Assembly: GCA_949285455.1 (NCBI GenBank)
Contig: CASDXP010000009.1
Coordinates: 1 to 34,244, forward strand
Direction: 5' to 3'
Length of the DNA: 34,244 nt
Source of the DNA: an uncultured bacterium
GTDB lineage: Bacteria > Bacillota_I > Bacilli_A > RFN20 > CAG-826
A program made the translations under genes and the position numbers. Shown here piece by piece: positions 7,918 through 23,886 of this stretch. The number at the start of each line of letters is the position of its first letter. Within the stretch, counting starts at the first letter, position 1. The notes below the pieces were generated by a model. It searched no databases and had not been told where the DNA came from. It saw only the letters and a program-made list of their open reading frames with translations.

Positions 7918-8976
7918 ATGAAACTAACTAGACAAGACCAAATTCTCAAAATGATCGTCGAAACGTTCATCAAGACGTGCGAACCAGTGGGCTCTAATAC
8001 ACTTTTAGAAACCTATGGGCTCGATTATAGTTCAGCGACTATTCGTAACGAGATGAAAGCTTTAGAAGAAAGAGGGCTCATCGAAAAGACGCATACTTCT
8101 TCTGGAAGAGTACCATCTTCAAAAGGATATCGTTACTACGTCGAAAATTTAAGAGATCATAGCTTAGATGATGAATTCAAATATCAAATTCAACAAATCT
8201 TCGCAGATCAAAGTAAATCGATCGATGAAATTTTGACACAAAGTTGTGAAATTCTTTCTGAGATGACAAGTCTCGCTAGTGCGGTCTTAGGTCCTAATAC
8301 GAACGAAGAAAGCCTCATCTCTTTACAAATTATTCCTATTAACGATAAGACGATTACGGCTATCTTTGTCACCGATAAAGGCTACGTTGAAAATAAGACC
8401 TACGCTTTAAAAGAATCAATTAACATTGATTCACTCGTCAATTGCGTCAAGATTATCGAAGAGAGAATCAAGGGGACGAAAATTCAAGATTTGATGGAAA
8501 AGGTCGAAGCTTTGAAACCGATCATCCAAGACTACTTACTCGATTCGAGTCTCGTCTATCAATTCATCATGGAAGCGTTCGTCAAATTCGCAAGCGCAAG
8601 GGTAAATTTCTACGGGCAAGATAAACTACTTGAACGTCCAGAATATCGTCAAGACTTAGCGAAACTTAAAAAGATGGTTTCAGCCTTACATTCCCCTGAT
8701 ATTATCAAAGAAATTTATGATCAAAGTCGTCATGAAGATGATATAAATGTCTACGGTGAAGATGATGATTTAACTATCATTACTTCTAAACTTCATCTTC
8801 CTGGCGTCGGCCAAGGCCACATCGCTTTGCTCGGCCCATCGCGTATCGATTACGATCGCGTCTTAAGTGCAATCGATTATCTTAATGAGACGTTAGATCA
8901 TTATTTTGATGAAAGGAGTGAACTCACGTGGAAGAAGAAAAACTCGAACAAGAAGTACAAGAAGAAGAGAATCTAA
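7918..8976 (+). CDS. hrcA: heat-inducible transcription repressor HrcA
   Basis: HrcA represses chaperone operons by binding CIRCE and is itself stabilised by GroEL. The 352 residues match the family. The N-terminal winged helix is clear (DQILKMIVETFIKTCEPVGS, SSATIRNEMKALEERGLIEK, TSSGRVPSSKGYRYYV), followed by the GAF-like middle domain and the C-terminal IALLGPSRIDYDRVLSAIDY block. The ATG at 7918 has AAAAGGA six bases upstream, inside the CIRCE right arm, so the repressor and ribosome sites touch. The 3' end overlaps grpE by 49 bases and codes for an unusual lysine-rich tail. Confidence 0.97.
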   Translation: MKLTRQDQILKMIVETFIKTCEPVGSNTLLETYGLDYSSATIRNEMKALEERGLIEKTHTSSGRVPSSKGYRYYVENLRDHSLDDEFKYQIQQIFADQSKSIDEILTQSCEILSEMTSLASAVLGPNTNEESLISLQIIPINDKTITAIFVTDKGYVENKTYALKESINIDSLVNCVKIIEERIKGTKIQDLMEKVEALKPIIQDYLLDSSLVYQFIMEAFVKFASARVNFYGQDKLLERPEYRQDLAKLKKMVSALHSPDIIKEIYDQSRHEDDINVYGEDDDLTIITSKLHLPGVGQGHIALLGPSRIDYDRVLSAIDYLNETLDHYFDERSELTWKKKNSNKKYKKKRI

Positions 8977-9503
8977 AAAAAGAAGATAAGAAAACTAAAA
9001 AGGATCGTAAGCGTGAAGAAGAAATAAGCGCTTTAAAAGAAGAAATTCATCATTGGAAAAACGCATATTACAAATCTTACGCGGATACGGAAAACTTACG
9101 TAAATCTCTCGAGAAGGATTACCGCGACGCTCTCAAATATCGAAGTGCATCCTTCATCGAAGATTTAATTCCTATCTTAGATGCTTTCGATAGTGCCTTA
9201 TCAATCCCGGTCGAAGACGAAAAATTGAAGAACTACTTAGTGGGATTTACTTACATTCATAATCAGCTTTTAAGCCTTCTAGATAAGGAAGGAATAAAAG
9301 TCTTAGATGCAAAAGCGGGCGATAAGTTCGATGAAAAATCGATGCACGCAATCGAAGTTGGTGAAGAAGAAAGTGACATAGTCACAGTGCTCAAAGTTAA
9401 CGCGAAAGGTTATAAACTTCATGATCACCTACTTAGACCGATCCTTGTCAAAGTCACCAAGAGCAAGAATGACAATAAAGAAGAAAAGAAGCTAGATGCT
9501 TAA
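8928..9503 (+). CDS. grpE: nucleotide exchange factor GrpE
   Basis: GrpE releases ADP from DnaK. The 191-residue protein has the expected charged N terminus (Glu/Lys-rich, residues 1-35), a long coiled-coil helix (residues about 36-90, with YADTENLRKSLEKDYRDALKY) and the C-terminal beta-wing (FDEKSMHAIEVGEE, HDHLLRPILVKVTK). The start is GTG at 8928, set by AAAGGAG at 8912-8918; it lies inside hrcA with a 49-base overlap. The dnaK start follows 18 bases after the stop. Confidence 0.96.
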   Translation: MEEEKLEQEVQEEENLKKEDKKTKKDRKREEEISALKEEIHHWKNAYYKSYADTENLRKSLEKDYRDALKYRSASFIEDLIPILDAFDSALSIPVEDEKLKNYLVGFTYIHNQLLSLLDKEGIKVLDAKAGDKFDEKSMHAIEVGEEESDIVTVLKVNAKGYKLHDHLLRPILVKVTKSKNDNKEEKKLDA

Positions 9504-9521
9504 AAAGGAGGAAATTAAATT

Positions 9522-11366
9522 ATGGCAAAAGAAGTAATTTTAGGTATCGACTTAGGTACGACTAATTCTGTCGTATCTTACTTACAAGCGGATGGCAAAG
9601 TTAAAGTCATCCCTAATCCAGAAGGCACGATGACCACACCATCCGTCGTCGCTTTCAAAAATAATGGCGAAGTTATCGTCGGTAATGCAGCGAAAAGACA
9701 AGCTCTCACTAATCCTGACACCGTCACATCGATCAAACGTAAGATGGGTAGTGCGGAAAAAGTGCACATCGCTTCGCAAAATAAAGATTTTACGCCACAA
9801 GAAATTAGCGCCAAAATCTTAGCGTACATGAAAAAATATGCCGAAGAAAATATCGGTCATAAAGTTGAAAAAGCTGTCATCACCGTTCCTGCTTACTTTA
9901 ACGATGCGCAAAGACAAGCGACGAAAGATGCTGGCCAAATTGCTGGATTAGACGTCGTTCGTATCATCAATGAACCAACAGCAGCCGCTTTAGCTTACGG
10001 CTTAGATACGAACAAATCTGAAAAGATCTTAGTGTTCGATTTAGGTGGTGGAACGTTCGACGTTTCAATTCTTGATATCGGCGATGGTACTTTCGAAGTC
10101 ATCTCGACCGCCGGCGATAACCGTTTAGGCGGTGACGATTGGGACCAAGTGCTCGCTGATTATTTGAAAAATGAAGTGAAAATTAAACATGGTATCGACA
10201 TTTCCGATAAGATGGCCTTACAACGTTTCTTAGATGCAGCAGAAAAAGCTAAAATTGAACTTTCAAGTTCACTTGAAACGACCGTTTCCTTACCATTTAT
10301 TGGTATGTCTTCAAGCGGCCCAGTCTCCTTTGAAACGACGATCACCCGTGCGAAATTCCAAGAACTTACCAAACATCTTCTCGCACGTTGTGAAGTACCA
10401 TTTAAACGTGCTTTAGAAGACGCGAAGATGAGCGTGAACGAATTAGATCAAATCTTACTTATCGGTGGTTCAATTAGAATGCCGGCTGTCCAAGAACTCG
10501 TCAAGAGATTGAGCGGTGGTAAGACTCCTAACTTATCAGTTAATCCTGATGAAGCTGTCTCCATCGGTGCAGCTATTCAAGGCGGCGTCTTCTCCGGTGA
10601 AGTCAAAGATGTCGTTTTACTCGACGTCACACCTTTAACCTTAGGTATCGAAACCTTAGGTGGTATCATGACACCTCTCATCCAAAGAAATACGACGATT
10701 CCGACGACAAAATCGCAAATTTTCTCGACAGCTGCGGATAATCAACCAGCTGTGGACATCATGGTCTATCAAGGTGAACGTCCTTTAGCGCACGATAATA
10801 AACTTCTCGGTCACTTCCAACTTACTGGTATTAAGCCCGCTCGTAAGGGTGAACCAAGAATTGAAGTGACGTTCAATATTGACGTTAACGGTATCGTCAA
10901 AGTCACAGCGAAAGATTTAGATACGCAAAAAGAACAAGAGATTACCATCTCTGGATCGAACGGCTTATCGAAAGAAGAAATTGACCGTATGGTCCGCGAA
11001 GCGGAAGAAAACCGTGAAGCTGATGAAAAACGTCAACAAGAAATCGAACTTAAAAATAAAGCTGAACAATACATCTCGACGATCGATGTCGCTTTGAATG
11101 AAAAAGGCGCGAGCATGGATGAAAATCAAAAGAAACAAACTGAAGATTTAAGAGATGAACTCAAGAAAGCTTTAGAAAATAACGATATGGAAACACTTAA
11201 GAACCGTATCGATGAGCTTGAAAAAGCTGCGCAGATGATGGCTTCCATGAATAGCGATGGAAAGACTAGTCAAGAAGCAAGAGAATCTACGCAAGCCGAG
11301 GCTGATGCTTCCGCTAATAAAGATGATGATGTCATCGATGCTGATTTCAGCGATAAGAAAGCTTAA
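9522..11366 (+). CDS. dnaK: chaperone DnaK (Hsp70)
   Basis: A complete 614-residue Hsp70. The ATPase domain (residues about 1-365) shows the phosphate-1 motif [45 protein letters not shown] and [12 protein letters not shown]. The substrate domain follows ([16 protein letters not shown]), then a helical lid. The tail ends in the acidic [11 protein letters not shown], the typical EEVD-like bacterial end. AAAAGGAGG precedes the ATG. It is the third gene of the HrcA-controlled operon; an intercistronic hairpin separates it from dnaJ. Confidence 0.98.
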
Positions 11367-11401
11367 TTATCATTAATATTAAAAATATTAAATTGACACT
11401 G

Positions 11402-11420
11402 AAGGGGCATTTTGCCCCTT
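11402..11420 (+). other. intercistronic hairpin between dnaK and dnaJ
   Basis: AAGGGGCA (11402-11409), loop TTT, TGCCCCTT (11413-11420) form a perfect 8-bp GC-rich stem. Only three T follow before GG, so it is a poor terminator. It more likely protects or attenuates the dnaK message, lowering dnaJ expression. A TTGACA at 11393-11398 has no -10 at a usable distance. Confidence 0.7.
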
Positions 11421-11447
11421 TGGTGCTTATCTTAGAAAGGAGAAAAT

Positions 11448-12590
11448 ATGGCCCAAAAAAGAGATTATTACGAAGTCTTAGGTATCGCTAAATCCGCTTC
11501 GAAAGATGAGATTAAATCGGCTTATCGTAAATTAGCGAAAAAATATCATCCTGACCTCAATAAAGCTCCAGACGCTGCCGATAAATTTAAAGAAGTGCAA
11601 GAAGCTTACGACATCCTTTACGATGATCAAAAAAGACAAGCCTACGACCAATTTGGGCACGCTGCTTTCGAACACGGTGAAGGCATGGGCTCTAATCCTT
11701 TCCAAGGAGCAGGTTTCCAAGGCCAAGGATTTGGCGATGTCAACTTTGGTGATTTCGGTGACTTATTTTCCTCTATTTTTGGTGGAGGAAGAAGAAGTAG
11801 GCAAAGTTATGGTCCAAGAAAAGGCGACGATGAACTCATCGATATTAGATTATCTTTCATGGACGCAATTAGAGGAAAAACTATCTCTTTTCCTTTAGAT
11901 TACGAAGAAATATGTGAGACGTGCCACGGTAGTGGAGCAAGAAGTGCAAGTGATGTTATCACTTGTCCAGACTGCCAAGGCCGAGGATACGTGCGCACTC
12001 AAACTAGATCTTTATTCGGCATGATGTCGCAAGACGTCACGTGTCCTCGCTGTAACGGTAAAGGCAAAATTATCAAAAATCCGTGCGATAAATGTGGCGG
12101 CAAAGGTTATACGCGCATCAAGAAAAATGTCGACGTCAATATTCCCGCTGGCATCGCAAGTGGACAACAAATCCGTCTACAAGGTAAAGGCTCGCGTGGG
12201 GAAAATGGTGGACCTAATGGTGACTTATACATAAGAGTAAACGTCATGTCGCATAAATACTTTACAAGGGATGGGAACGATATTCATATCGAAGTGCCAA
12301 TCTCTAGTCTCGATGCGATGCTGGGCGCAGATATCGAAGTACCGACAGTTTACGACAATGTGACGCTCAACATTCCTGCCGGTATCGCTCCGAATCAAAT
12401 CTTACGTATGAAAGCTAAAGGCGTCAAAGCGATGCGCGGAAGTGGAGCGGGAGATGAATACGTCCACGTCAAGATCGTCACACCTTCCAAGTTGACGAAA
12501 GAACAAAAAGAATTACTCACGCGTGTAAGAGCAAGTCTCAACGCGAAAGATGATCCACAAAACGATTTTAAACGCAATTTCAGCCGTTAA
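11448..12590 (+). CDS. dnaJ: chaperone DnaJ (Hsp40)
   Basis: A full-length type I Hsp40 of 380 residues that delivers substrates to DnaK and stimulates its ATPase. The J domain (residues 4-68) contains YHPDLNK with the HPD triad. A Gly/Phe-rich linker spans residues about 75-118. The zinc domain has all four CxxCxGxG repeats ([32 protein letters not shown]), followed by two beta-barrel substrate domains. AGAAAGGAG is eight bases before the ATG. A terminator follows the stop. Confidence 0.98.
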
Positions 12591-12598
12591 ATTTAATA

Positions 12599-12630
12599 GA
12601 AAGATGCTTGAAAATTCAAGCGTCTTTTTT
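12599..12630 (+). terminator. terminator of the hrcA-grpE-dnaK-dnaJ operon
   Basis: AAGATGCTTGA pairs with TCAAGCGTCTT (one T-G pair) around an A-rich loop, followed by a T run to 12630. It lies nine bases after the dnaJ stop. Confidence 0.88.
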
Positions 12631-12667
12631 AAAATTATATATAAGGAGCAAGAAAGGGGCGAAAATT

Positions 12668-13099
12668 ATGCCGAATTGTCGTCAATGTGGAAGCCGTCTA
12701 TCGAAACTTGATAAAGATATTTGTCCTGTCTGCGGGCTTAAACATCCTTTCGAAGATGCGGTGAGTCAAGATACAGTCGAATTTACCCAAACGATTGGTG
12801 TCATCAAAGATGACATTCCTAAGGTTAAATCCCGTAAGCTCGCCATCCGCCTAGCAGTGTTCGCTAATTTGTTAGGCTTAGATTTCTATTATTTACATTT
12901 CTATCTCGCATTTTATCTGAATCTTGCTTACCTTTTGATCTTAGGTATCATTTTACCGACGGTTTTAACGATATTTTTTGGTCTATGGTATCTATTTATA
13001 ATTTTCTTAGGGTTTCAGGCGCTTACGCATATTGCTTACGGTATCTATTTAAAACAGGCGATCGATTTGAAAGATGGTCGAGGAGAATTCCTTCGTTAA
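12668..13099 (+). CDS. zinc-ribbon membrane protein, function unknown
   Basis: A 143-residue protein started at ATG 12668 (MPNCRQCGSRL). A longer reading from 12608 would begin inside the dnaJ terminator and is rejected; AAAGGGG at 12654-12660 supports 12668. The N terminus is a zinc ribbon: C4-x2-C7 and CPVCG about residues 23-26. A polar linker follows, then two to three hydrophobic helices (about residues 58-80, 82-105 and 108-130). Proteins of this layout usually anchor a cytoplasmic zinc ribbon to the membrane; the function is not known. It and the next gene occupy the place of prmA-rsmE in B. subtilis. Confidence 0.7.
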   Translation: MPNCRQCGSRLSKLDKDICPVCGLKHPFEDAVSQDTVEFTQTIGVIKDDIPKVKSRKLAIRLAVFANLLGLDFYYLHFYLAFYLNLAYLLILGIILPTVLTIFFGLWYLFIIFLGFQALTHIAYGIYLKQAIDLKDGRGEFLR

Positions 13100-13102
13100 T
13101 TT

Positions 13103-13888
13103 ATGAAACTTTATAAGCTTTTAGAAAATAAGAAGAAACGCATCAAACATCTTTGGAAGACGAAAGAATATGCTTTATTTTACGATAAAAAAGACTGGCT
13201 TTTAAAATTTCCTAATGTAAGTAAAGATGTTCTCGAGACGAATGATGATTTTAAAATTATTCAAGCTAATATTCTCATCTTATCTTTGCTCAATAAAAAT
13301 AAAATTGAAAAAAGAGCGAAAAAATATCTCACTTTGAGCGATGAAGAAAAAAATAATTACGATATATATCATGATTTACCTTACTTTGTAAGTAAGGAAG
13401 GAGAAGTGATTTACATTCCTTGCTTTCCTAAAGCCTTGAATATGATTTACGCAAAAGATGCGATGAAATTAAATGAACCGCCTTACGATGCCTTGAAAAA
13501 AGATTTTGTCGCTTCTTTGATCGACCCATTCGACGAATATGGTTTCCAAATTTACGATTCTTTATTTTCACGTCTTTTAAAAGTTGGTGAAAAAGATGAA
13601 GTCGCCTTCTTTTATCATGTCGATTTCGCTAATATCTACGTCATAAATGACCAAGGTAGGCTAGATGTTAAAATTTCATTATTCGATAAATATATGCATC
13701 ACATCAATAAAAACGGTATGGTGGAAAGAATTAAACCAATTATCGATGCTTATAATCAAAACGATAAAAAAGCATTGGTAGATGCTTTGCTCACCCAAGA
13801 TTTGATTTCTGGAAGAATGCACCATCTCATCTACAAAAAAGAACGCAAGTTCAAACGTAATCAATTCCGCATCAAAGGAACGAAATGA
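13103..13888 (+). CDS. conserved-looking soluble protein, function unknown
   Basis: A 261-residue basic protein with no signal peptide, membrane helix or motif that I can assign. Notable segments are the Lys-rich N terminus (residues 1-25), LSDEEKNNYDIYHDLPYF near 78-95, SLIDPFDEYGFQIYDSLFSRL near 138-158, FFYHVDFANIYVIN near 170-183 and a strongly basic tail. It starts three bases after the zinc-ribbon gene with no nearby Shine-Dalgarno (GAGGAG lies 19 bases upstream), so translation is probably coupled. It overlaps the mtaB start by four bases (ATGA), suggesting co-expression with a tRNA modification enzyme. Confidence 0.65.
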   Translation: MKLYKLLENKKKRIKHLWKTKEYALFYDKKDWLLKFPNVSKDVLETNDDFKIIQANILILSLLNKNKIEKRAKKYLTLSDEEKNNYDIYHDLPYFVSKEGEVIYIPCFPKALNMIYAKDAMKLNEPPYDALKKDFVASLIDPFDEYGFQIYDSLFSRLLKVGEKDEVAFFYHVDFANIYVINDQGRLDVKISLFDKYMHHINKNGMVERIKPIIDAYNQNDKKALVDALLTQDLISGRMHHLIYKKERKFKRNQFRIKGTK

Positions 13889-16285: not shown

Positions 16286-16462
16286 ATGCCGAAGACAGTC
16301 GTACGTGAAAACGAATCATTAGATGAAGCTCTTCGCCGTTTCAAACGTCAAGTGAACAAAGCTGGTACCCTTCAAGAAGCCAAGAAACGCGAATACTATC
16401 TAAAGCCTGGTCTCAAAAGAAAATTGAAATCTGAACAGGCTCGTCGTAAAAATCGTAAATAA
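16286..16462 (+). CDS. rpsU: 30S ribosomal protein bS21
   Basis: The 58-residue protein starts [19 protein letters not shown] and is basic throughout, as expected of bS21, with the LKPGLKRK stretch and a Lys/Arg tail. The start at 16286 rather than the upstream ATG at 16223 is set by AAGGAGATG six bases before it and by the family N terminus; 16223 lies in the promoter. It has its own promoter and terminator. Confidence 0.97.
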
Positions 16463-16520: not shown

Positions 16521-16547
16521 ATGAAATCACGTATTAATACTATGTGA
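16521..16547 (+). CDS. possible 8-codon leader peptide coupled to the C39 gene
   Basis: ATG at 16521, eight sense codons (MKSRINTM), stop TGA at 16545-16547. The stop overlaps the GTG start of the next gene in a GTGA arrangement, the usual form of translational coupling. AAGAAAGAAG just upstream is the only purine-rich site near, while the GTG itself has none. Too short to judge by composition. Confidence 0.3.
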   Translation: MKSRINTM

Positions 16548-17737
16548 TACATACGATTTCTCAACTTTACCCAGATGATTGTGGTTACACTTGTTTGAAG
16601 ATGCTCCTCGCTAATTTGAAGAAAGACCGTGGCTATCTATATTTGAAACACCCAAAAACGAGCGGTGCTTATTCTTTTCTCGAACTAAAAGAAATTGCTG
16701 CTAGTTACGGTGTTTCTTTAAATGGCTACCGTTTTTTAAAAAACGAAGATTTATTGACGATCCACGTTTTTCCTTTCATTGCTCAAATTAAAAAAGGTGA
16801 GATAGGGCACGCTGTTCTCGTTTATAAAATTAAGAAAAATAACATCTATTTTGTCGATCCTTTAGAAGGGAAGAAAAAGATGGGATTAGAACAATTTTAT
16901 TGTTTGTTTGCGAATACATGCCTCATCTATGATGAAGTGAAGGAAGATAAGAAGCGAATGAGCGTCTATAAATTTATACCGAAGAAGGAAAGAAGGACGC
17001 AAATAATATTGAATGCTTTGACTAGTTTAACTTTTTTCTCTTTCATCTTCATCATTTCACCTAATATTCCATTTTTCCTGCCTATTTTGCTTCTCATGTG
17101 TTTCGTCATTTTAGAAATCATCTACCGTACTTATTCTTTATCTTTGTCGAAGAAGTTTGATGAAACTTATCTTGCTAATTATTTATATAAAGCAGATGGT
17201 AGTGAAAAATCTTTGAAGACGATCATCGAATTAAAAACTTTTAGCATTAATGCACCTATTACTTTCATCACTAATTTGACGAGCATTCTCGTCTTACTTG
17301 TTTTAGCCTCATTAAGTAACTTAGTGTTCATCTATTTATTTTTCATCATTTTCCTCGTCCATCTTTGTTTCTTCTTCGTCGAAAAACGTTACGTCGAGCC
17401 TAAGAAATTACAAATTTTGCAAAAAGAAAGTATGCTCGAAGTCACGAAGAAAGAAAATTACACACAATTCAAGGCACTAGTGGAAGAACTTAGCAATCTT
17501 AGTGAAGAAGTAGGTAAGCTTTATTTGTTAAAGAAATATATTATTTGGTTCTTAATCGCTCTTCTAGCTTGTTTTATCACCCTAGCGTCAAGTAGTTTTA
17601 ATTTCACTGAGTTATTGTTCGCTTACGTTTTACTTTTCTATTCTTCCGAATCGATCGCTAAGATGTTTAGCTTCACCAGCGCATTTAAAAATTATCAAAT
17701 TGCGTACATGTCATTTATCAACATTTACTTCGCTTAA
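16544..17737 (+). CDS. C39 peptidase / ABC-transporter membrane domain protein lacking the ATPase domain
   Basis: A 397-residue protein built like the front two thirds of a peptidase-containing ABC transporter (PCAT). Residues 1-140 are a C39 cysteine peptidase with Gln7, Cys13 (QLYPDDCGYTCLKM), His89 (GHAVLVY) and Asp105 (FVDP), so the catalytic set is complete. C39 domains cut double-glycine leader peptides. Residues about 150-395 hold six transmembrane helices in three pairs, as in an ABC exporter domain. The chain ends where the nucleotide-binding domain should begin; no Walker A, Walker B or LSGGQ sequence follows in any nearby gene. The start is GTG with no Shine-Dalgarno. It lies after the rpsU terminator, before the DUF362-lar operon. 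No double-glycine peptide was found nearby. Confidence 0.75.
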   Translation: MIHTISQLYPDDCGYTCLKMLLANLKKDRGYLYLKHPKTSGAYSFLELKEIAASYGVSLNGYRFLKNEDLLTIHVFPFIAQIKKGEIGHAVLVYKIKKNNIYFVDPLEGKKKMGLEQFYCLFANTCLIYDEVKEDKKRMSVYKFIPKKERRTQIILNALTSLTFFSFIFIISPNIPFFLPILLLMCFVILEIIYRTYSLSLSKKFDETYLANYLYKADGSEKSLKTIIELKTFSINAPITFITNLTSILVLLVLASLSNLVFIYLFFIIFLVHLCFFFVEKRYVEPKKLQILQKESMLEVTKKENYTQFKALVEELSNLSEEVGKLYLLKKYIIWFLIALLACFITLASSSFNFTELLFAYVLLFYSSESIAKMFSFTSAFKNYQIAYMSFINIYFA

Positions 17738-17827: not shown

Positions 17828-18697
17828 ATGCCGAGTAAAGTTTATTTTACAAAATCAATTAATAAAGAGGCGCTCGTCAAACTTTACGATGCTTTAGGCA
17901 AGAAATTAAAAGGCAAAGTTGCTTGCAAATTACATTCTGGTGAAGCCGGCAATAAAAATTATCTTCGCCCTACATTCGTCGAAGAAATTATATCTTTATT
18001 AGACGCTACTGTCGTCGAATGTAATACCGCTTATGAAGGCGAGAGAAATACGAACGAAAAACATAAAAAATTATTAAAAGATCACGGTTGGAGTACGCAT
18101 TTTAAAGTCGATTTGTTAGATGAAGAAGGTCCTGATTATAAATTTGACATACCTTATGGTAAACAAATAAAAGAAAATTTTGTTGGTAAGCATCTTTTAA
18201 ATTATGATTCTTTGCTCGTCATCTCACATTTTAAAGGCCATGGGATGGGAGGCTATGGTGGAGCTTTAAAACAATTATCCATCGGCTGTGCATCTTCGTT
18301 TGGCAAAAGATATATTCATGGTGCAGGTGATGCGACGATGGATATGTTTAAAACTGAACAAGCAAAATTCGTCACTTCAATGGGTGATGCTGCGAGTAGC
18401 GTCCACAAATATTTTAAAAGCCGTGCTGTTTACATTAATTGCATGGTTAATATTTCCATCGATTGCGATTGCGATGCGAACGCTCACGCACCTTGCATGC
18501 AAGATATCGGCCTTCTCATCAGCGAAGATCCAGTCGCTATCGACCAAGCATGTCTAGATATCATCTACAATTCTAAAGACCTAGGAAAGGAACAATTGAT
18601 CGAAAGAATCGAATCTCGACTTGGCCATCTCATCATCGATACAGCGGAAGAAGATGGCTGTGGGAGTTCTAATTACGAACTTATTAGCATCGATTAA
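17828..18697 (+). CDS. DUF362 family protein heading the lar operon
   Basis: A 289-residue DUF362-type protein. Recognisable family blocks are the N-terminal VYFTKSINKEAL, KLHSGEAGNKNYLRP, the central VISHFKGHGMGGYGGALKQL, and the C-terminal IDCDCDANAHAPCMQDIGLL followed by SEDPVAIDQACLD. The Cys cluster C-D-C-x7-C could bind a metal. No separate ferredoxin domain is present, unlike longer DUF362 proteins. Biochemical function of the family is not established to my knowledge. The next gene, larC, starts seven bases downstream, so it is very likely co-transcribed with larC-larB-larE. Its position suggests it uses, stores or loads the nickel-pincer cofactor; this is inference. Confidence 0.8.
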   Translation: MPSKVYFTKSINKEALVKLYDALGKKLKGKVACKLHSGEAGNKNYLRPTFVEEIISLLDATVVECNTAYEGERNTNEKHKKLLKDHGWSTHFKVDLLDEEGPDYKFDIPYGKQIKENFVGKHLLNYDSLLVISHFKGHGMGGYGGALKQLSIGCASSFGKRYIHGAGDATMDMFKTEQAKFVTSMGDAASSVHKYFKSRAVYINCMVNISIDCDCDANAHAPCMQDIGLLISEDPVAIDQACLDIIYNSKDLGKEQLIERIESRLGHLIIDTAEEDGCGSSNYELISID

Positions 18698-18704
18698 ACA
18701 GTTT

Positions 18705-19874
18705 ATGAGAATTTTATATTTTAATGCTTCTAGTGGTATAAGCGGCAATATGACCTTAGCCGCCTTATTAGAAATTATCGGCGATGATAATTATCTTTTA
18801 GATGAATTGAAAAAATTACATTTGGATGGCTATGAAATTATCATTGAACAAGTGAACAAAAATCACATTCACGCGAAGCACGTGGAAGTGAAAGTTGAAG
18901 AAAGTCACGTCCATAGACATTTGAGCGATATTGATAAGATAATCGATGGAAGCGATTTAAAAGTTTCTATCAAAGCTTTGGCGAAAAAAATGTTTCTTGC
19001 GGTAGCGAAAGCAGAAAGTAAAGTACATGGTATTCCATTAGAAGAAGTACATTTTCACGAAGTAGGAGCATTAGATTCCATCATCGATATCGTCGGGACA
19101 GCAATTTTGATCGATAAAATTCATCCCGATAAGATTTACGGTGGGGAATTAAATGAAGGGAAAGGCTTCATCACTTGTAAGCACGGTCTCATGGCTGTTC
19201 CTGTACCCGCTACTTTAGAAATTTTAAAAGAAGGACAAATCCCTTTTAAACAAATCGATATCGAAACAGAACTTATCACTCCGACGGGGGCCGCTATTTT
19301 TGCTACCTTAGTAGAAAAAATCCAAGATATACCGCATGGTAAAATAATTAAGCGTGGCTTTGGAGCGGGCACAAAAGATATTAAAATTCCCAATATCTTA
19401 ATAGCTCTATTGATGGAAGAAGAAGATGAAATGAACGAAGAAGACGTTTACGTCTTAAACACGAACATTGACGATAGCAATGGGGAAATTTTAGGCTACG
19501 TTCAAGAAAAACTTTTAGCCTTAGGAGCCTTAGATGTTTCTTTTATTCCTCTCTACATGAAAAAGAATCGCCCAGCTTATAAACTTGAAGTTATTTTAAA
19601 GCCGAATGATTTAGCTAAGATTAGCGACCTTATCTTTTTAGAAACTTCTTCTATAGGAGTAAGATATCGTAAAGAAAAGCGTCTCATCTTGAAAAGGGAA
19701 GAGATGAGCGTCGATTCAATTTATGGGCCTCTTAAAGGGAAGAAAGTTTATACTTCGAATGGAACAAAGATTTATCCAGAATATGAATCATTGAAAGAAA
19801 TTGCTAAGAAAAAAGATATTCCCTTAAAAGATTTATACGATTTATTTATTATTTTGACGAATTATGGAAATTAA
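18705..19874 (+). CDS. larC: nickel insertion protein LarC (pincer cofactor synthesis)
   Basis: LarC is the CTP-dependent cyclometallase that inserts nickel into the pyridinium-3,5-bisthiocarboxylate mononucleotide to form the NPN cofactor. The 389 residues contain MRILYFNASSGISGNMTLA at the N terminus, a His-rich segment (SHVHRH), the FHEVGALDSIIDIVG block and the C-terminal VLNTNIDDSNGEILGY and SIGVRYRKEKR parts. LarC1 and LarC2 regions are in one uninterrupted frame; in Lactiplantibacillus plantarum they are joined by frameshifting. An upstream ATG at 18621 lies inside the DUF362 gene and is rejected. No Shine-Dalgarno is seen; coupling is likely. The 3' end overlaps larB by 11 bases. Confidence 0.93.
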   Translation: MRILYFNASSGISGNMTLAALLEIIGDDNYLLDELKKLHLDGYEIIIEQVNKNHIHAKHVEVKVEESHVHRHLSDIDKIIDGSDLKVSIKALAKKMFLAVAKAESKVHGIPLEEVHFHEVGALDSIIDIVGTAILIDKIHPDKIYGGELNEGKGFITCKHGLMAVPVPATLEILKEGQIPFKQIDIETELITPTGAAIFATLVEKIQDIPHGKIIKRGFGAGTKDIKIPNILIALLMEEEDEMNEEDVYVLNTNIDDSNGEILGYVQEKLLALGALDVSFIPLYMKKNRPAYKLEVILKPNDLAKISDLIFLETSSIGVRYRKEKRLILKREEMSVDSIYGPLKGKKVYTSNGTKIYPEYESLKEIAKKKDIPLKDLYDLFIILTNYGN

Positions 19875-20604
19875 AGAAATATTAAGACGATACAAAAATG
19901 ATGAGATAAATGAAGAAGAAACTTTGAAATTATTGAATAAAGTTTCTTTTGAAGATTTAGGTTTCGCTAAAATCGATCATGATCGTAAAGAAAGAACAGG
20001 CGTAAGCGAAGTTATATATGGCGAAAATAAAAGCGAAGAACAACTCGCTAAAATCTTTCTAAATTTATACGAGAAAAATGGCGAAGTTTTAGCCACGAGA
20101 GTAAATGAAAAACAATTTAACTATGTTAAAAGTTATCTTCCTCAAGTAAGTTACGATAAAGATTCGCGCATTTTAAAAATTGCTAAGGAGAAGAAAAAAG
20201 TTGGTAAGATTATCATTCTTAGCGCTGGAACTGCGGACTCCAATGTGGCAAATGAAGCATACGAAGTAGCAGATTTTCTTGGTTCAAACGTCGAAAAAAT
20301 TTACGATGTCGGTGTCTCTGGTATCCATCGACTTTTAGCTTATGAAGAAGAAATTAAAACTGCCCATGTCATCATCTGCGTGGCTGGGATGGAAGGTGCT
20401 TTAGCAAGCGTCGTCGCCGGGTTAGTTAAAGTTCCTGTCATCGCTTGTCCAACTTCGGTCGGCTACGGTTCTAATTTCCACGGTTTAAGTGCATTATTAA
20501 CGATGCTCAATTCTTGTGCGAACGGGGTGAGCGTCGTCAATATCGATAATGGTTTTGGAGCGGCTTACATCGCTCATCAAATTAATTTATTAGCGGAAAA
20601 ATGA
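19864..20604 (+). CDS. larB: pyridinium biscarboxylic acid synthase LarB
   Basis: LarB carboxylates and hydrolyses nicotinic acid adenine dinucleotide to give the biscarboxylated pyridinium mononucleotide, the first step of NPN cofactor synthesis. The 246-residue protein has an N-terminal helical part and a C-terminal PurE-like domain: SAGTADSNVANEAYEVADFL, DVGVSGIHRLLAY, VAGMEGALASVVAGLV, CPTSVGYGSNFHGLSALL, NIDNGFGAAYIAHQ. It overlaps larC by 11 bases and larE by four (ATGA), so the three are tightly coupled. Confidence 0.95.
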   Translation: MEIKEILRRYKNDEINEEETLKLLNKVSFEDLGFAKIDHDRKERTGVSEVIYGENKSEEQLAKIFLNLYEKNGEVLATRVNEKQFNYVKSYLPQVSYDKDSRILKIAKEKKKVGKIIILSAGTADSNVANEAYEVADFLGSNVEKIYDVGVSGIHRLLAYEEEIKTAHVIICVAGMEGALASVVAGLVKVPVIACPTSVGYGSNFHGLSALLTMLNSCANGVSVVNIDNGFGAAYIAHQINLLAEK

Positions 20605-21392
20605 AAGATATTAAATTAAGTAATTTAAAACAGTATTTAAAAGACGAAGGTAAACTCGCTATCGCATATTCTGGCGGTATCGATTCTTTGTTCTTATTAA
20701 AAATTGCTACGCTTACTTTAGGAAAAGAAAATGTTAAAGGTTACCTTGTTAGTCATCCTTTATTAGGAAAAGAAAATTTAAAAGCTGCCATCAAACTTTT
20801 AGATAAATATTCTCTTCCTTACGAAGTAATTGACGTGGATACTTTAAAAGTCGCAGCGATTAAATCCAATAGCCTTACTCGCTGCTATCATTGTAAGAAA
20901 ACGATGATGAACGCTATTTTAGAAGCGATGAAAAAAGATGGCTTTTCTAAACTTTTAGTCGGCGAAAATAAAAGCGATACGTTAGAAGAAAATAGGCCAG
21001 GTAAAAAAGCTCTTGAAGAATTAAAAATTCTTACCCCTCTTAGCGATCTAGATTTTTATAAAGAAGATATTAGAAAATGTGCAAGAAAAATTGCCATAAG
21101 TGAATTCGATATGCCTTCTAATAGTTGTTTAGCGACGAGGTTTCCTTATAACCATACTCTAATGATAAAGAAATTAAGACGCGTCGAGAAAGTGGAAACA
21201 ATTTTAAAAATTTTAGGTTACAAAGTTATCAGGGCTAGAGAAGAAAATGACATCTTACGTTTGGAGATAAGAAAGAAAGATTTTTCTAAATTGGTGAAAG
21301 ATGAAGAAGCGATAAGTGCTCTTAATAAACTTGGTTATAGATTTATTACTCTCGATTTAAATGGCTACCGTAAAGGAAGTTACGATAAATAA
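20601..21392 (+). CDS. larE: sacrificial sulfur transferase LarE
   Basis: LarE activates the LarB product with ATP and replaces carboxylate oxygens with sulfur. The 263-residue protein carries the PP-loop SGGIDS at residues 24-29 and the motif SNSCLATRF with Cys176, the same number as the sacrificial cysteine of L. plantarum LarE. That version gives up its own cysteine sulfur, whereas others use a [4Fe-4S] cluster. Additional cysteines (TRCYHCKK near residues 94-98, and one before IAISEF) could matter. It is the last gene of the operon; no poly-U terminator follows, only a short hairpin at 21398. Confidence 0.94.
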   Translation: MKDIKLSNLKQYLKDEGKLAIAYSGGIDSLFLLKIATLTLGKENVKGYLVSHPLLGKENLKAAIKLLDKYSLPYEVIDVDTLKVAAIKSNSLTRCYHCKKTMMNAILEAMKKDGFSKLLVGENKSDTLEENRPGKKALEELKILTPLSDLDFYKEDIRKCARKIAISEFDMPSNSCLATRFPYNHTLMIKKLRRVEKVETILKILGYKVIRAREENDILRLEIRKKDFSKLVKDEEAISALNKLGYRFITLDLNGYRKGSYDK

Positions 21393-21434: not shown

Positions 21435-21905
21435 ATGAATTTACATTTTGAATATAGTGACTTAGTAAGCCAAAAAAATTATGAGCCGTTACTGCGCTTT
21501 TATCTCGAATTAACTTTAAAAACTTTGCGTATCGATTGTGACGATTTATTTTTATCTTTATCGATCGTCGATGATGAACTTATGCATACGTTAAATTTAT
21601 CTTATCGAAAAGTTGATCGTTCCACGGATGTTTTATCCTTTGCATTTTTAGAAGGTGAAAAACTTAATTACCAAGATAAGATGTTAGACTTAGGGGAGAT
21701 TTATATTTCCTTAGCAAAATGTGAAGAACAAGCACCGATGTATAATCTTACAGTAGAAGAGGAATTAGCCTATCTTTTCATCCATGGATTATTACATCTA
21801 TTTGGTTACGACCACGACACGGAAGAAAAAAAGCAAACTATGTTTGCCTTACAAGATGAAATATTTAAGAAAGGAAAAGATTATGGATTACCAAAAATTG
21901 ATTGA
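21435..21905 (+). CDS. ybeY: endoribonuclease YbeY (16S rRNA 3' processing)
   Basis: YbeY is a zinc-dependent endoribonuclease needed for 16S rRNA 3'-end maturation and ribosome quality control. The 156-residue protein has the signature H117-x3-H121-x5-H127 in HGLLHLFGYDH, and the upstream YRKVDRSTDVLSFAF and DLGEIYISL blocks. It opens the ybeY-cdd-era-recO block known from Firmicutes; phoH upstream and dgkA downstream are missing here. It overlaps cdd by 23 bases. Confidence 0.95.
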   Translation: MNLHFEYSDLVSQKNYEPLLRFYLELTLKTLRIDCDDLFLSLSIVDDELMHTLNLSYRKVDRSTDVLSFAFLEGEKLNYQDKMLDLGEIYISLAKCEEQAPMYNLTVEEELAYLFIHGLLHLFGYDHDTEEKKQTMFALQDEIFKKGKDYGLPKID

Positions 21906-22284
21906 AAAAGCAAAGGAAGCAAGAAAATTATCTTATACGCCTTATTCCCATTTTCCAGTAGGGGCGGCCTTATTGACGAAAGAAGGAAAAGTTTACGTGG
22001 GGGCAAATATCGAAAATGCTTCTTACCCTCTTTGTATGTGCGCGGAAAGAAATGCCATTTATCAATCGTATTTAGATGGAGTAAGAAAAGATGATATTGC
22101 CGCTATCGTTATCGTCGCAGATACGCCTAATCCATGTTCTCCTTGTGGCGCATGCCGCCAAGTCATAAGTGAATTAATGGATGAAAACGCTGATGTCATC
22201 ATGACGAATTTGAATGACGACACCTTAGTGGTAAAGGTGAAAGATATCTTACCTTTCGCTTTTAGCGAAGAGGATTTAAAGTAA
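21883..22284 (+). CDS. cdd: cytidine deaminase
   Basis: Cdd deaminates cytidine and deoxycytidine for pyrimidine salvage. The 133-residue protein starts at ATG 21883, preceded by AAGGAAAAG; an earlier in-frame ATG at 21784 lies deep in ybeY and does not match the family. Zinc ligands are Cys53 (CAERNAIY, with catalytic Glu55) and Cys88/Cys91 in SPCGACRQV. The tetrameric-type length and the N-terminal SYTPYSHFPVGAALL are typical. Confidence 0.96.
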   Translation: MDYQKLIEKAKEARKLSYTPYSHFPVGAALLTKEGKVYVGANIENASYPLCMCAERNAIYQSYLDGVRKDDIAAIVIVADTPNPCSPCGACRQVISELMDENADVIMTNLNDDTLVVKVKDILPFAFSEEDLK

Positions 22285-22285
22285 G

Positions 22286-23152
22286 ATGAAAACTGGTTTC
22301 GTTGCACTTTTAGGGCGCACTAACGTCGGTAAATCTTCAATTTTAAACGAAATTATTCAAGAAAAAGTTTCCATCGTCACTTATAAACCACAGACGACGC
22401 GTAATAAGATACGTGGTATCTATACGGATAATGAAGCGCAACTCGTCTTCTTAGATACGCCAGGAATTCATCATCCTTATAAAGAATTAGGAAAGAAGAT
22501 GAACCATCTTGCTTTCGAAGCTTTAAAAGATGCGGATGTGATAGTTCTAGTCATCGATGTCAAAGCTAAAAAAGATGAATTAGATGAAGAAATTATCGAA
22601 AGATTAAAAAAGATTAAAAATCTTATCATTTGTTTCAACAAAATCGATTTAGCAAGCGTTATTGAAGTGGAAGAAAAGAAAAATTATTACAAAGAAAAAC
22701 TTGCTCACGCAAAGATGATTGAAACAAGTGTGAAAGATCATTTTAATTTAGATGGTTTAATTAAATTAATTAAAGATGATTTAAATGAAGGTCCTTTATA
22801 TTACGATCCAAACGATAAAAGTGACGCTTCTTTATCTTTTAAAATAAGTGAGACAATCAGGGAAAAAGCTCTCAATTTTTTACGCGATGAAGTTCCGCAC
22901 GCCCTCTACGTCGAAATTGAAAATATTGAATTTAAACCAAAGAAGATGATCATCAACGCTTCACTCATCTTAGAAAATGAAGGACAAAAAGGTATCGTCA
23001 TTGGAAAAAATGGCCGGATGATTCAAAAAATTGGAAGAAGCGCAAGATTAGATTTAGAAAATATGTTCCATAAGACGATATATTTAGAACTTTTCGTCAA
23101 AGTGAAAGAAGATTGGCGAGATAAGAATAGTTTCGTCAAAACTTTCCAATAA
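22286..23152 (+). CDS. era: GTPase Era
   Basis: Era binds 16S rRNA and acts in 30S assembly. The 288-residue protein has the G1 loop GRTNVGKS (residues 10-17), the TTRNKIRG switch region, G3 DTPGIHHP, G4 NKID, and a C-terminal KH domain with the VIGKNGRMIQKIG motif (IVIGKNGRM). It starts one base after the cdd stop, with GAGG inside the end of cdd. Confidence 0.97.
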   Translation: MKTGFVALLGRTNVGKSSILNEIIQEKVSIVTYKPQTTRNKIRGIYTDNEAQLVFLDTPGIHHPYKELGKKMNHLAFEALKDADVIVLVIDVKAKKDELDEEIIERLKKIKNLIICFNKIDLASVIEVEEKKNYYKEKLAHAKMIETSVKDHFNLDGLIKLIKDDLNEGPLYYDPNDKSDASLSFKISETIREKALNFLRDEVPHALYVEIENIEFKPKKMIINASLILENEGQKGIVIGKNGRMIQKIGRSARLDLENMFHKTIYLELFVKVKEDWRDKNSFVKTFQ

Positions 23153-23157
23153 TCAAT

Positions 23158-23886
23158 ATGAAAGAAATAGAAGGTATTATCATCCATCAAATTGCGCAGA
23201 AAGAAAAAGATGCGATGTTATCTTTTCTAACGAAAGAAGGCTTATTATCAATTTATGCAAGAGGTATCAAAGATAATAAGAGCAAGAACGCACACGCTGT
23301 AAGTGTTGGCTGTCTATCTTCTTTAGAAATTAACGAAGGTCGTCTAGGTGGCAAATCCTTAAAGAGCGCAACTTTAATTACTTATCTAGGAGAAAATTTA
23401 AAATCATTGTTGGATTATGCTTGTTTTAATTATGCTTTAGAACTAGCAAGAAAAGCTGACGAAGTAATAGAAGATAAAAGTCGTGCTTTTGAAACGCTTC
23501 ACACTTTTTTATCAATTGAAAAAATAGATGATAGCGTCGCTCATCTATTAGCCTACATCACACAAATTTTAATTCTTTTAGGTGAGAGAATAAAAATTGA
23601 TGGTTGCGTCTATTGCGATAAAAAAAGTGAAATCGTTTCTTATTCATTAGATGATGGCGGATTAATCTGCCAAAATCATTTCGATAAGGGGAGAATGGAA
23701 AAAGAAAGTAATGATCAAATTAATCTTTTACGTTTTTTATTTATGGCTAAACAAGAAGAAGCGAGGCGATTAAATCTTACTTTGAAACAATATCTTCATC
23801 TATTAAATCAATATCATATCTTATTAAAAGATAATTTAGGAATTGACATCAAATCATTCGCTTTATTTAAACCATTTTTTCAATAA
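23158..23886 (+). CDS. recO: DNA repair protein RecO
   Basis: RecO helps load RecA on SSB-covered single-stranded DNA with RecR/RecF. The 242-residue protein has an N-terminal OB fold (EGIIIHQIAQKEKDAML, LSIYARGIKDNKSK), a helical middle and a C-terminal zinc site (CVYCDKK and later ICQNH). It lies directly after era as in most Firmicutes. No Shine-Dalgarno is evident five bases after the era stop, so coupling is likely. Confidence 0.92.
   Translation: MKEIEGIIIHQIAQKEKDAMLSFLTKEGLLSIYARGIKDNKSKNAHAVSVGCLSSLEINEGRLGGKSLKSATLITYLGENLKSLLDYACFNYALELARKADEVIEDKSRAFETLHTFLSIEKIDDSVAHLLAYITQILILLGERIKIDGCVYCDKKSEIVSYSLDDGGLICQNHFDKGRMEKESNDQINLLRFLFMAKQEEARRLNLTLKQYLHLLNQYHILLKDNLGIDIKSFALFKPFFQ

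Follow-up and report, generated by a model that had tools for sequence, protein, structure and literature searches.

What a peptidase-containing ABC transporter (PCAT) might do once its ATPase is gone is the question raised by a gene in a 34,244-nucleotide stretch of DNA from an uncultured bacterium, which was analysed as a whole and is referred to here as the window. A preliminary description had reported an intact C39 peptidase followed by six membrane helices in a chain that ends where the nucleotide-binding domain (NBD) should start, and it offered three options for the product, namely a membrane-tethered double-glycine (GG) protease, a protein that borrows an ATPase in trans, or a stand-alone processing enzyme. 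The gene and its parts are located in the window as follows.

16544–17737, + strand: protein of 397 aa with C39 and membrane domain (TMD), GTG start, no NBD (translation, Pfam)
16553–16933, + strand: peptidase C39 domain, aa 4–130 (Pfam PF03412, 1.1e-18)
16562, 16580, 16808 and 16856, + strand: catalytic residues Q7, C13, H89 and D105, respectively (positions in the translation)
16994–17734, + strand: exporter-like membrane domain, about six helices, intracellular loops shortened (hydropathy)

A C39 protease and membrane domain without an ATPase

The 397-aa frame at 16544–17737 ends in a stop codon, and its start and length are kept in two relatives (L031/L032). Peptidase_C39 was the sole Pfam domain found in the protein, ABC_tran was absent, and the translation halts at the boundary where the NBD would begin. 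All four catalytic residues are present at the positions given in the preliminary description, and the C39 domain is alignable to 6mpz and 7n87, two PCAT protease domains of solved structure. A six-window hydropathy fit placed six helices beyond aa 150, five of them strong and the sixth weak, in agreement with the number described earlier. An AlphaFold run with three close sequences as input gave a pLDDT of 41. The window protein is the only C39 protein of its 1.1-Mb genome. The observation of a C39 domain with membrane helices and no NBD was thus confirmed.

The protein shares with the PCAT/AMS group (PCAT1, LahT and ComA; bacteriocin exporters) an N-terminal C39 domain with the same Gln, Cys, His and Asp set; it appears to have an exporter-like membrane part as well, and it may recognise GG-type leaders in the same way. 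Unlike the PCATs, it has shortened intracellular loops, and the C-terminal NBD with its Walker A and signature motifs is missing. Judged by the NBD, it is not a PCAT but a derived, motor-less variant of one.

The short form is conserved across the order

Three further genomes of the genus and about 180 across the order carry orthologues of the same length (59–89% identical). These orthologues end at the same point, which answers the earlier doubt over whether relatives stop here and excludes an assembly error at 17737. A single-sequence search found NBD-less orthologues of about 400 aa in most genomes of the genus, family and order, and a profile of 40 orthologues found the gene in 181 of the 192 order genomes, each at least 85% complete. 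The best-match open frames across the order span about 360–490 aa and are essentially the NBD-less form, and the form of about 400 aa was ATPase-free wherever it was seen. A full ATPase domain in close relatives, which the preliminary description had named as grounds for regarding the gene as a simple truncation, was absent within the order and present only in other orders. Seven order genomes had neither a C39-TMD protein nor a Pfam C39 match; the ybeY region is apparently missing in several of the C39-less genomes, these being weak negatives obtained with an approximate YbeY query (43% identical to that of the window).

Across 40 divergent orthologues with a mean column identity of 32%, Q7, C13 and H89 are invariant and D105 is kept in at least 90%; the counts for Asp were 39/40 and 29/30. 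The dN/dS of the gene was 0.047 and 0.077 against two congeners, with synonymous sites near saturation in one pair, and it was alike for the C39 and the membrane domain in the own-genus comparison. In a tree of C39 domains, the 40 short forms all fall on one side of a single branch (support 85/99). The suggestion that selection has kept the protease and membrane parts is borne out by these residues and ratios together with the near-universal occurrence of the gene. A recently truncated, decaying gene or an assembly artefact would agree with the coincidence of the chain end with the TMD/NBD boundary and with the existence of full-length relatives in other orders, but it is at odds with the common end in so many genomes, the invariant catalytic residues, dN/dS below 0.1, the remodelled loops (see below) and the single clade of short forms. 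The gene is not truncated because its NBD-less form is conserved order-wide; such a reading is already refuted within the order and retains next to no probability.

The gene occupies a housekeeping slot

In 40 of 40 order loci, the gene lies in the same slot, which runs from the dnaK cluster through the C39 gene to ybeY-cdd-era-recO-glyS-dnaG-rpoD, with mtaB-deoC-rpsU present or absent between the dnaK cluster and the C39 gene. In the window, the slot is bounded as follows.

8928–12590, + strand: grpE-dnaK-dnaJ cluster, upstream syntenic anchor (synteny)
16286–16462, + strand: rpsU, found upstream of the C39 gene in some members of the family (PF01165, 2.6e-21)
17828–21392, + strand: DUF362 and lar-like (nickel cofactor) genes, outside the system, inserted only in some genomes of the own genus
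21435–23886, + strand: ybeY-cdd-era-recO, downstream syntenic anchor (synteny), directly after the C39 gene in most relatives

Full C39-TMD-NBD proteins stand directly upstream of ybeY-era in the families f11, f22 and f20, the first two of which comprise mollicute-like genomes with in-frame TGA codons. In f17 the full protein is found near the slot, in the order PCAT ... rpsU ... ybeY. The Mbov_0121 family (NF045998) also shares the slot upstream of ybeY-era. The window gene is best explained as a housekeeping gene of vertical descent from a PCAT, with the ATPase discarded on the way. It differs from PCAT genes in its housekeeping locus, its lack of linkage to a precursor and its near-universal presence in the order. 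The preliminary description was right about selection on the protease and membrane parts, but it overlooked the class-wide housekeeping status and the matching precursor that is described below.

Several other features of these genomes were noticed. The insertion at 17828–21392, which contains DUF362, LarC-like nickel insertion, AIRC/LarB-like and PP-loop/LarE-like genes, is absent in the relative L036. Between dnaJ and mtaB (12608–13888) lie two ORFs, of 163 and 261 aa, that are kept in several relatives and gave no Pfam match at 0.001. In f8, a 429-aa C39-TMD protein lies outside the ybeY slot (L093:1238–2527, + strand), and the ybeY slot carries no C39 gene (L310). Three loci of the own family (L099, L100 and L101) encode a second, full-length PCAT of 722–726 aa, with a Nif11-like GG-leader peptide beside it in two of the three; this second PCAT is a separate RiPP-type system.

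Probable reduction of the transporter around a persisting protease

The proteins of this locus can be arranged in a series of decreasing size. Full C39-TMD-NBD proteins of 605–700 aa, with Walker A and PF00005, occur in the slot or its neighbourhood (for example, L095). Several f11 genomes encode a C-terminal region that retains a length of about 200 aa yet lacks Walker A, and the three scanned f11 proteins (L092, L098 and L154) were PF00005-negative with C39 intact in all. The NBD is absent in the own order. The f2 proteins are 167–171 aa long, consist of C39 and one C-terminal hydrophobic helix, and stand directly before ybeY-cdd-era; f4 has C39-only proteins of 127–131 aa, one of them directly before ybeY. 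The protease is the part that persists at the locus, since other orders have the full protein, some mollicutes an NBD in decay, and a sister family only C39 with a tail helix. The sequences suggest that the NBD decays independently in mollicutes. We infer loss as the simpler direction for this unrooted series because full proteins are spread over many families.

The intracellular loops were shortened as well. The medians for the short and the full forms are 45 versus 59 aa for ICL1 and 46 versus 71 aa for ICL2, with non-overlapping distributions; the loops of the window protein measure about 45 and 46–53 aa, and the Walker-A-less proteins have medians of 52 and 54 aa (range to 78). Three charged residues in these loops, D206, K231 and E295, hardly vary among the ATPase-less proteins but are not conserved in full PCATs, and they possibly form a new contact network in place of the NBD interface.

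The f2 and f4 relatives share the stand-alone form with excised or stand-alone C39 proteases. LahT150 has C39 activity without transport, but it is an artificial excision (PMC10885120), and FapD and FilB are stand-alone C39 proteases of other systems, for which the window protein scored far below cut-off.

A candidate precursor between valS and radC

No peptide precursor was found adjacent to the C39 gene in the 40 order loci; the statement that the gene is not beside any precursor therefore holds at the locus, but a candidate exists elsewhere in the genome. Regex and matrix scans covering about 96% of the own genome found no canonical GG leader, and the best score in it with an f17-trained matrix was 6.3, compared with 24–36 for real leaders and 6–16 for shuffled controls. 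These scans missed the own-genome peptide because its leader is of the VG type. Two GG-leader peptides lie alongside each of the nine f17 full PCATs examined (nine of nine), and the profile of one f17 peptide type matched other GG proteins of the class via the leader alone. In own-order and f20 genomes, the cross-match was a peptide of 54–60 aa beside radC, with valS on the other side in the order; in mollicutes, it was a larger GG protein that often neighbours rplU-prp-rpmA. The own-genome peptide was then identified at 5e-20 with a profile of the radC peptides. The genome search for double-glycine leader peptides proposed in the preliminary description was thus empty with generic scans and productive with the profile of relatives.

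Contig C18, about 12054–12233, − strand: candidate precursor peptide, between valS and radC (Pfam-verified)

The f17 pair itself (L083–L091, for example L091:11112–11401, + strand) is class-IIb-bacteriocin-like and consists of type A (..DGhhRPxKC) and type B (..GxxxGSAxRR..C) peptides beside the full PCAT. It occurs in nearly all f17 genomes with a match and, in several of them, has rpsU or another housekeeping gene nearby. These peptides were rejected as the general substrate, being absent from the own order.

The own-genome peptide, whose gene is preceded by a strong ribosome-binding site, reads MQALKMKDEEMKMTEVG↓SGITLTSVMAILTIGIIAVIAFKLFMSKEGKTTIPGGFKFEWN, where the arrow marks the inferred cut. 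The peptide was found in 184 of the 192 order genomes, in 148 of the 150 high-quality ones, and in at least four of the seven genomes without C39. The consensus of 45 aligned copies is xxxLxxxE(M/L)xxIxGG↓EAITLTAVMAVLAxAIVAVIVYRLFMSxKGxTTLPGGFKFxW. Among these copies, Leu or Met at −12 occurs in 42, Glu at −8 in 42, Gly at −2 in 36 (Val in 6) and Gly at −1 in all 45. The leader consensus of PCAT1 is L(−12)xxxE(−8)L(−7)xxxxG(−2)G(−1) (PMC6959990), and the leader of the peptide appears to match it across the order. In the own genus, GG is replaced by VG (P2 Gly to Val), followed by Ser or Ala, and the P1 Gly, E−8 and the hydrophobic residues at −7 and −12 are kept; the dN/dS of the peptide in this genus was 0.02–0.08. 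On the enzyme side, H36 is common only to the lineages with Val at −2 (own genus and g9), a possible enzyme-substrate co-variation that, as one column, is too little to count.

The peptide scored below the cut-off of every specific Pfam or NCBIfam family model that it matched. Among curated bacteriocin families it was likewise below every specific cut-off, and the generic leader model TIGR01847 was passed by one relative. Class II bacteriocins (PF10439, TIGR03949) have the same kind of leader and gave weak matches; unlike them, the valS-radC peptide is encoded once in each genome, within a housekeeping operon, and has a conserved KGxTTLPGGFKFxW tail. Where PCATs secrete a bacteriocin, the candidate product here would be a membrane peptide.

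Probable function of the window protein

Read from sequence, the window protein is probably a membrane-tethered C39 leader peptidase that works independently of ATP, its main substrate probably being the valS-radC peptide. The leader would dock on the C39 domain via the hydrophobic residues at −12 and −7, and Cys13, His89 and Asp105 would cut after the invariant Gly at −1, freeing a short N-terminus ahead of one transmembrane helix. With basic residues C-terminal to this helix, the peptide would insert with its N-terminus out and stay in the membrane. Because of this short N-terminus and the single helix with a basic C-side, the insertion could proceed without ATP-driven export. The membrane domain may serve as an anchor, a dimeriser or a lateral insertion path, and in f2 a single helix would suffice. 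Of the three options offered earlier, the membrane-tethered double-glycine protease fits best and the ATPase in trans is disfavoured, so that the earlier interpretation is partly supported overall.

The genes for protease and peptide are not linked. Because two near-universal genes co-occur trivially within the order, support for the pairing comes from the leader motif and from the Erysipelotrichaceae-like family f20, in which the 16 genomes with a C39 match are identical to the 16 with the peptide. The active-site cleft of PCAT1 is described as very narrow and GG-specific, and its transporter core is reportedly required for cleavage (PMC6959990). Cleavage is therefore least certain in the own genus, where VG meets what in PCAT1 is a narrow, GG-specific cleft.

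A half-transporter that still exports peptides, powered by an ABC ATPase borrowed in trans, would account for a retained membrane domain under selection equal to that on C39 in the own genus, and the genome does offer about 30 ABC ATPase domains (35 PF00005 matches). Both would-be coupling-helix loops are, however, shorter than in all full-length relatives, and each free-standing ABC ATPase examined in the genome has a permease or partner gene of its own next to it (FtsX/MacB-like, Ecf, ABC-2, Opp, Suf, sugar or polyamine type), so that the search for an orphan ATPase found none. These two results disfavour the borrowing of an ATPase, and the loss of the membrane domain as well in f2 and f4 and the apparently independent NBD decay in mollicutes point the same way; we consider it improbable.

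The membrane-tethered protease could also have another main substrate, with the valS-radC peptide cut by a different enzyme or left uncut. The replacement of GG by VG at the expected cut in the own genus, the separate location of the two genes and the presence of the peptide without a detected C39 in some genomes fit such a view. Against this, the genome has no second C39 enzyme, the canonical GG-leader scans gave no better candidate, G−1, E−8 and L/M−12 are retained in the peptide throughout the order, and the co-occurrence in f20 is exact, which leaves another main substrate unlikely. Non-proteolytic C39-like domains are known in type I secretion exporters, where the catalytic Cys is absent, and by this precedent the window protein might be a catalytically silent docking or immunity protein with the leader bound by its C39 fold. 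Here Cys and His are invariant and Asp is almost always kept, and a silent protein is very improbable. The ATP-independent leader peptidase is the reading that we retain.

Relation to mollicutes and the minimal cell

Mollicute-like GG-leader proteins of about 80–140 aa were seen at many loci (L211–L216, L219 and L280–L302), frequently next to rplU or in the interval from rsmI to rplU. A profile of the mollicute GG proteins matched 23 of the 28 f11/f22 genomes, the weakest of them marginally, and genomes with a decayed NBD are included; one mollicute genome, G172, gave no match to the peptide profile although it carries the C39 gene. No significant direct match was found between the order and mollicute peptide profiles. 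Several mollicute GG proteins have a G-x-(hydrophobic)-K ... W-D tail that resembles the KGxTTLPGGFKFxW tail of the order, and this likeness and the common valS-radC ... rplU region suggest that the peptides of the order and the mollicute GG proteins may be one family.

In the published reconstruction of JCVI-syn3A, gene 0401 is described as encoding a SunT-like C39 protein, and 0405 is listed as glyS (eLife 2019; PMC6609329). The gene order of the mollicute loci is C39-ybeY-era-recO-glyS, and since this order fits 0401 and glyS at 0405, 0401 fits the same slot, being placed there by gene order and published annotation. An f22 slot protein scored 526.6 bits for NCBIfam Mbov_0121 (NF045998; cut-off 500), whereas the window protein scored 52.4 bits over its N-terminal part only, below the 500-bit cut-off. 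The authors of the syn3A study tentatively proposed lipoyl import for 0401 and stated that no double-glycine candidate is known in syn3A or other mycoplasmas (PMC6609329). The present results lend no support to lipoyl import, and the mollicute GG proteins make the statement on double-glycine candidates worth revisiting.

We give about even chances to a wider proposal, in which the C39 protein at ybeY-era and the GG-leader membrane peptide at valS-radC ... rplU would be an ancient class-wide pair, inherited vertically from Erysipelotrichaceae-like families to mollicutes, with the transporter pared down stepwise as only leader cleavage matters. The paring would have passed from an active NBD to a dead NBD, to no NBD, to a protease with a tail anchor and finally to the protease only. 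If true, the pair would provide the first candidate substrate for the minimal-cell gene 0401, and a concrete, testable one for mollicute C39 proteins in general. In the PCAT1 work, the cutting of the leader is portrayed as tied strictly to ATP-driven transport; the relatives of the window protein offer a natural deletion series that separates processing from export, in which the motor is lost order-wide and the protease is always left. They also draw attention to a small membrane peptide that is near-universal in these bacteria.
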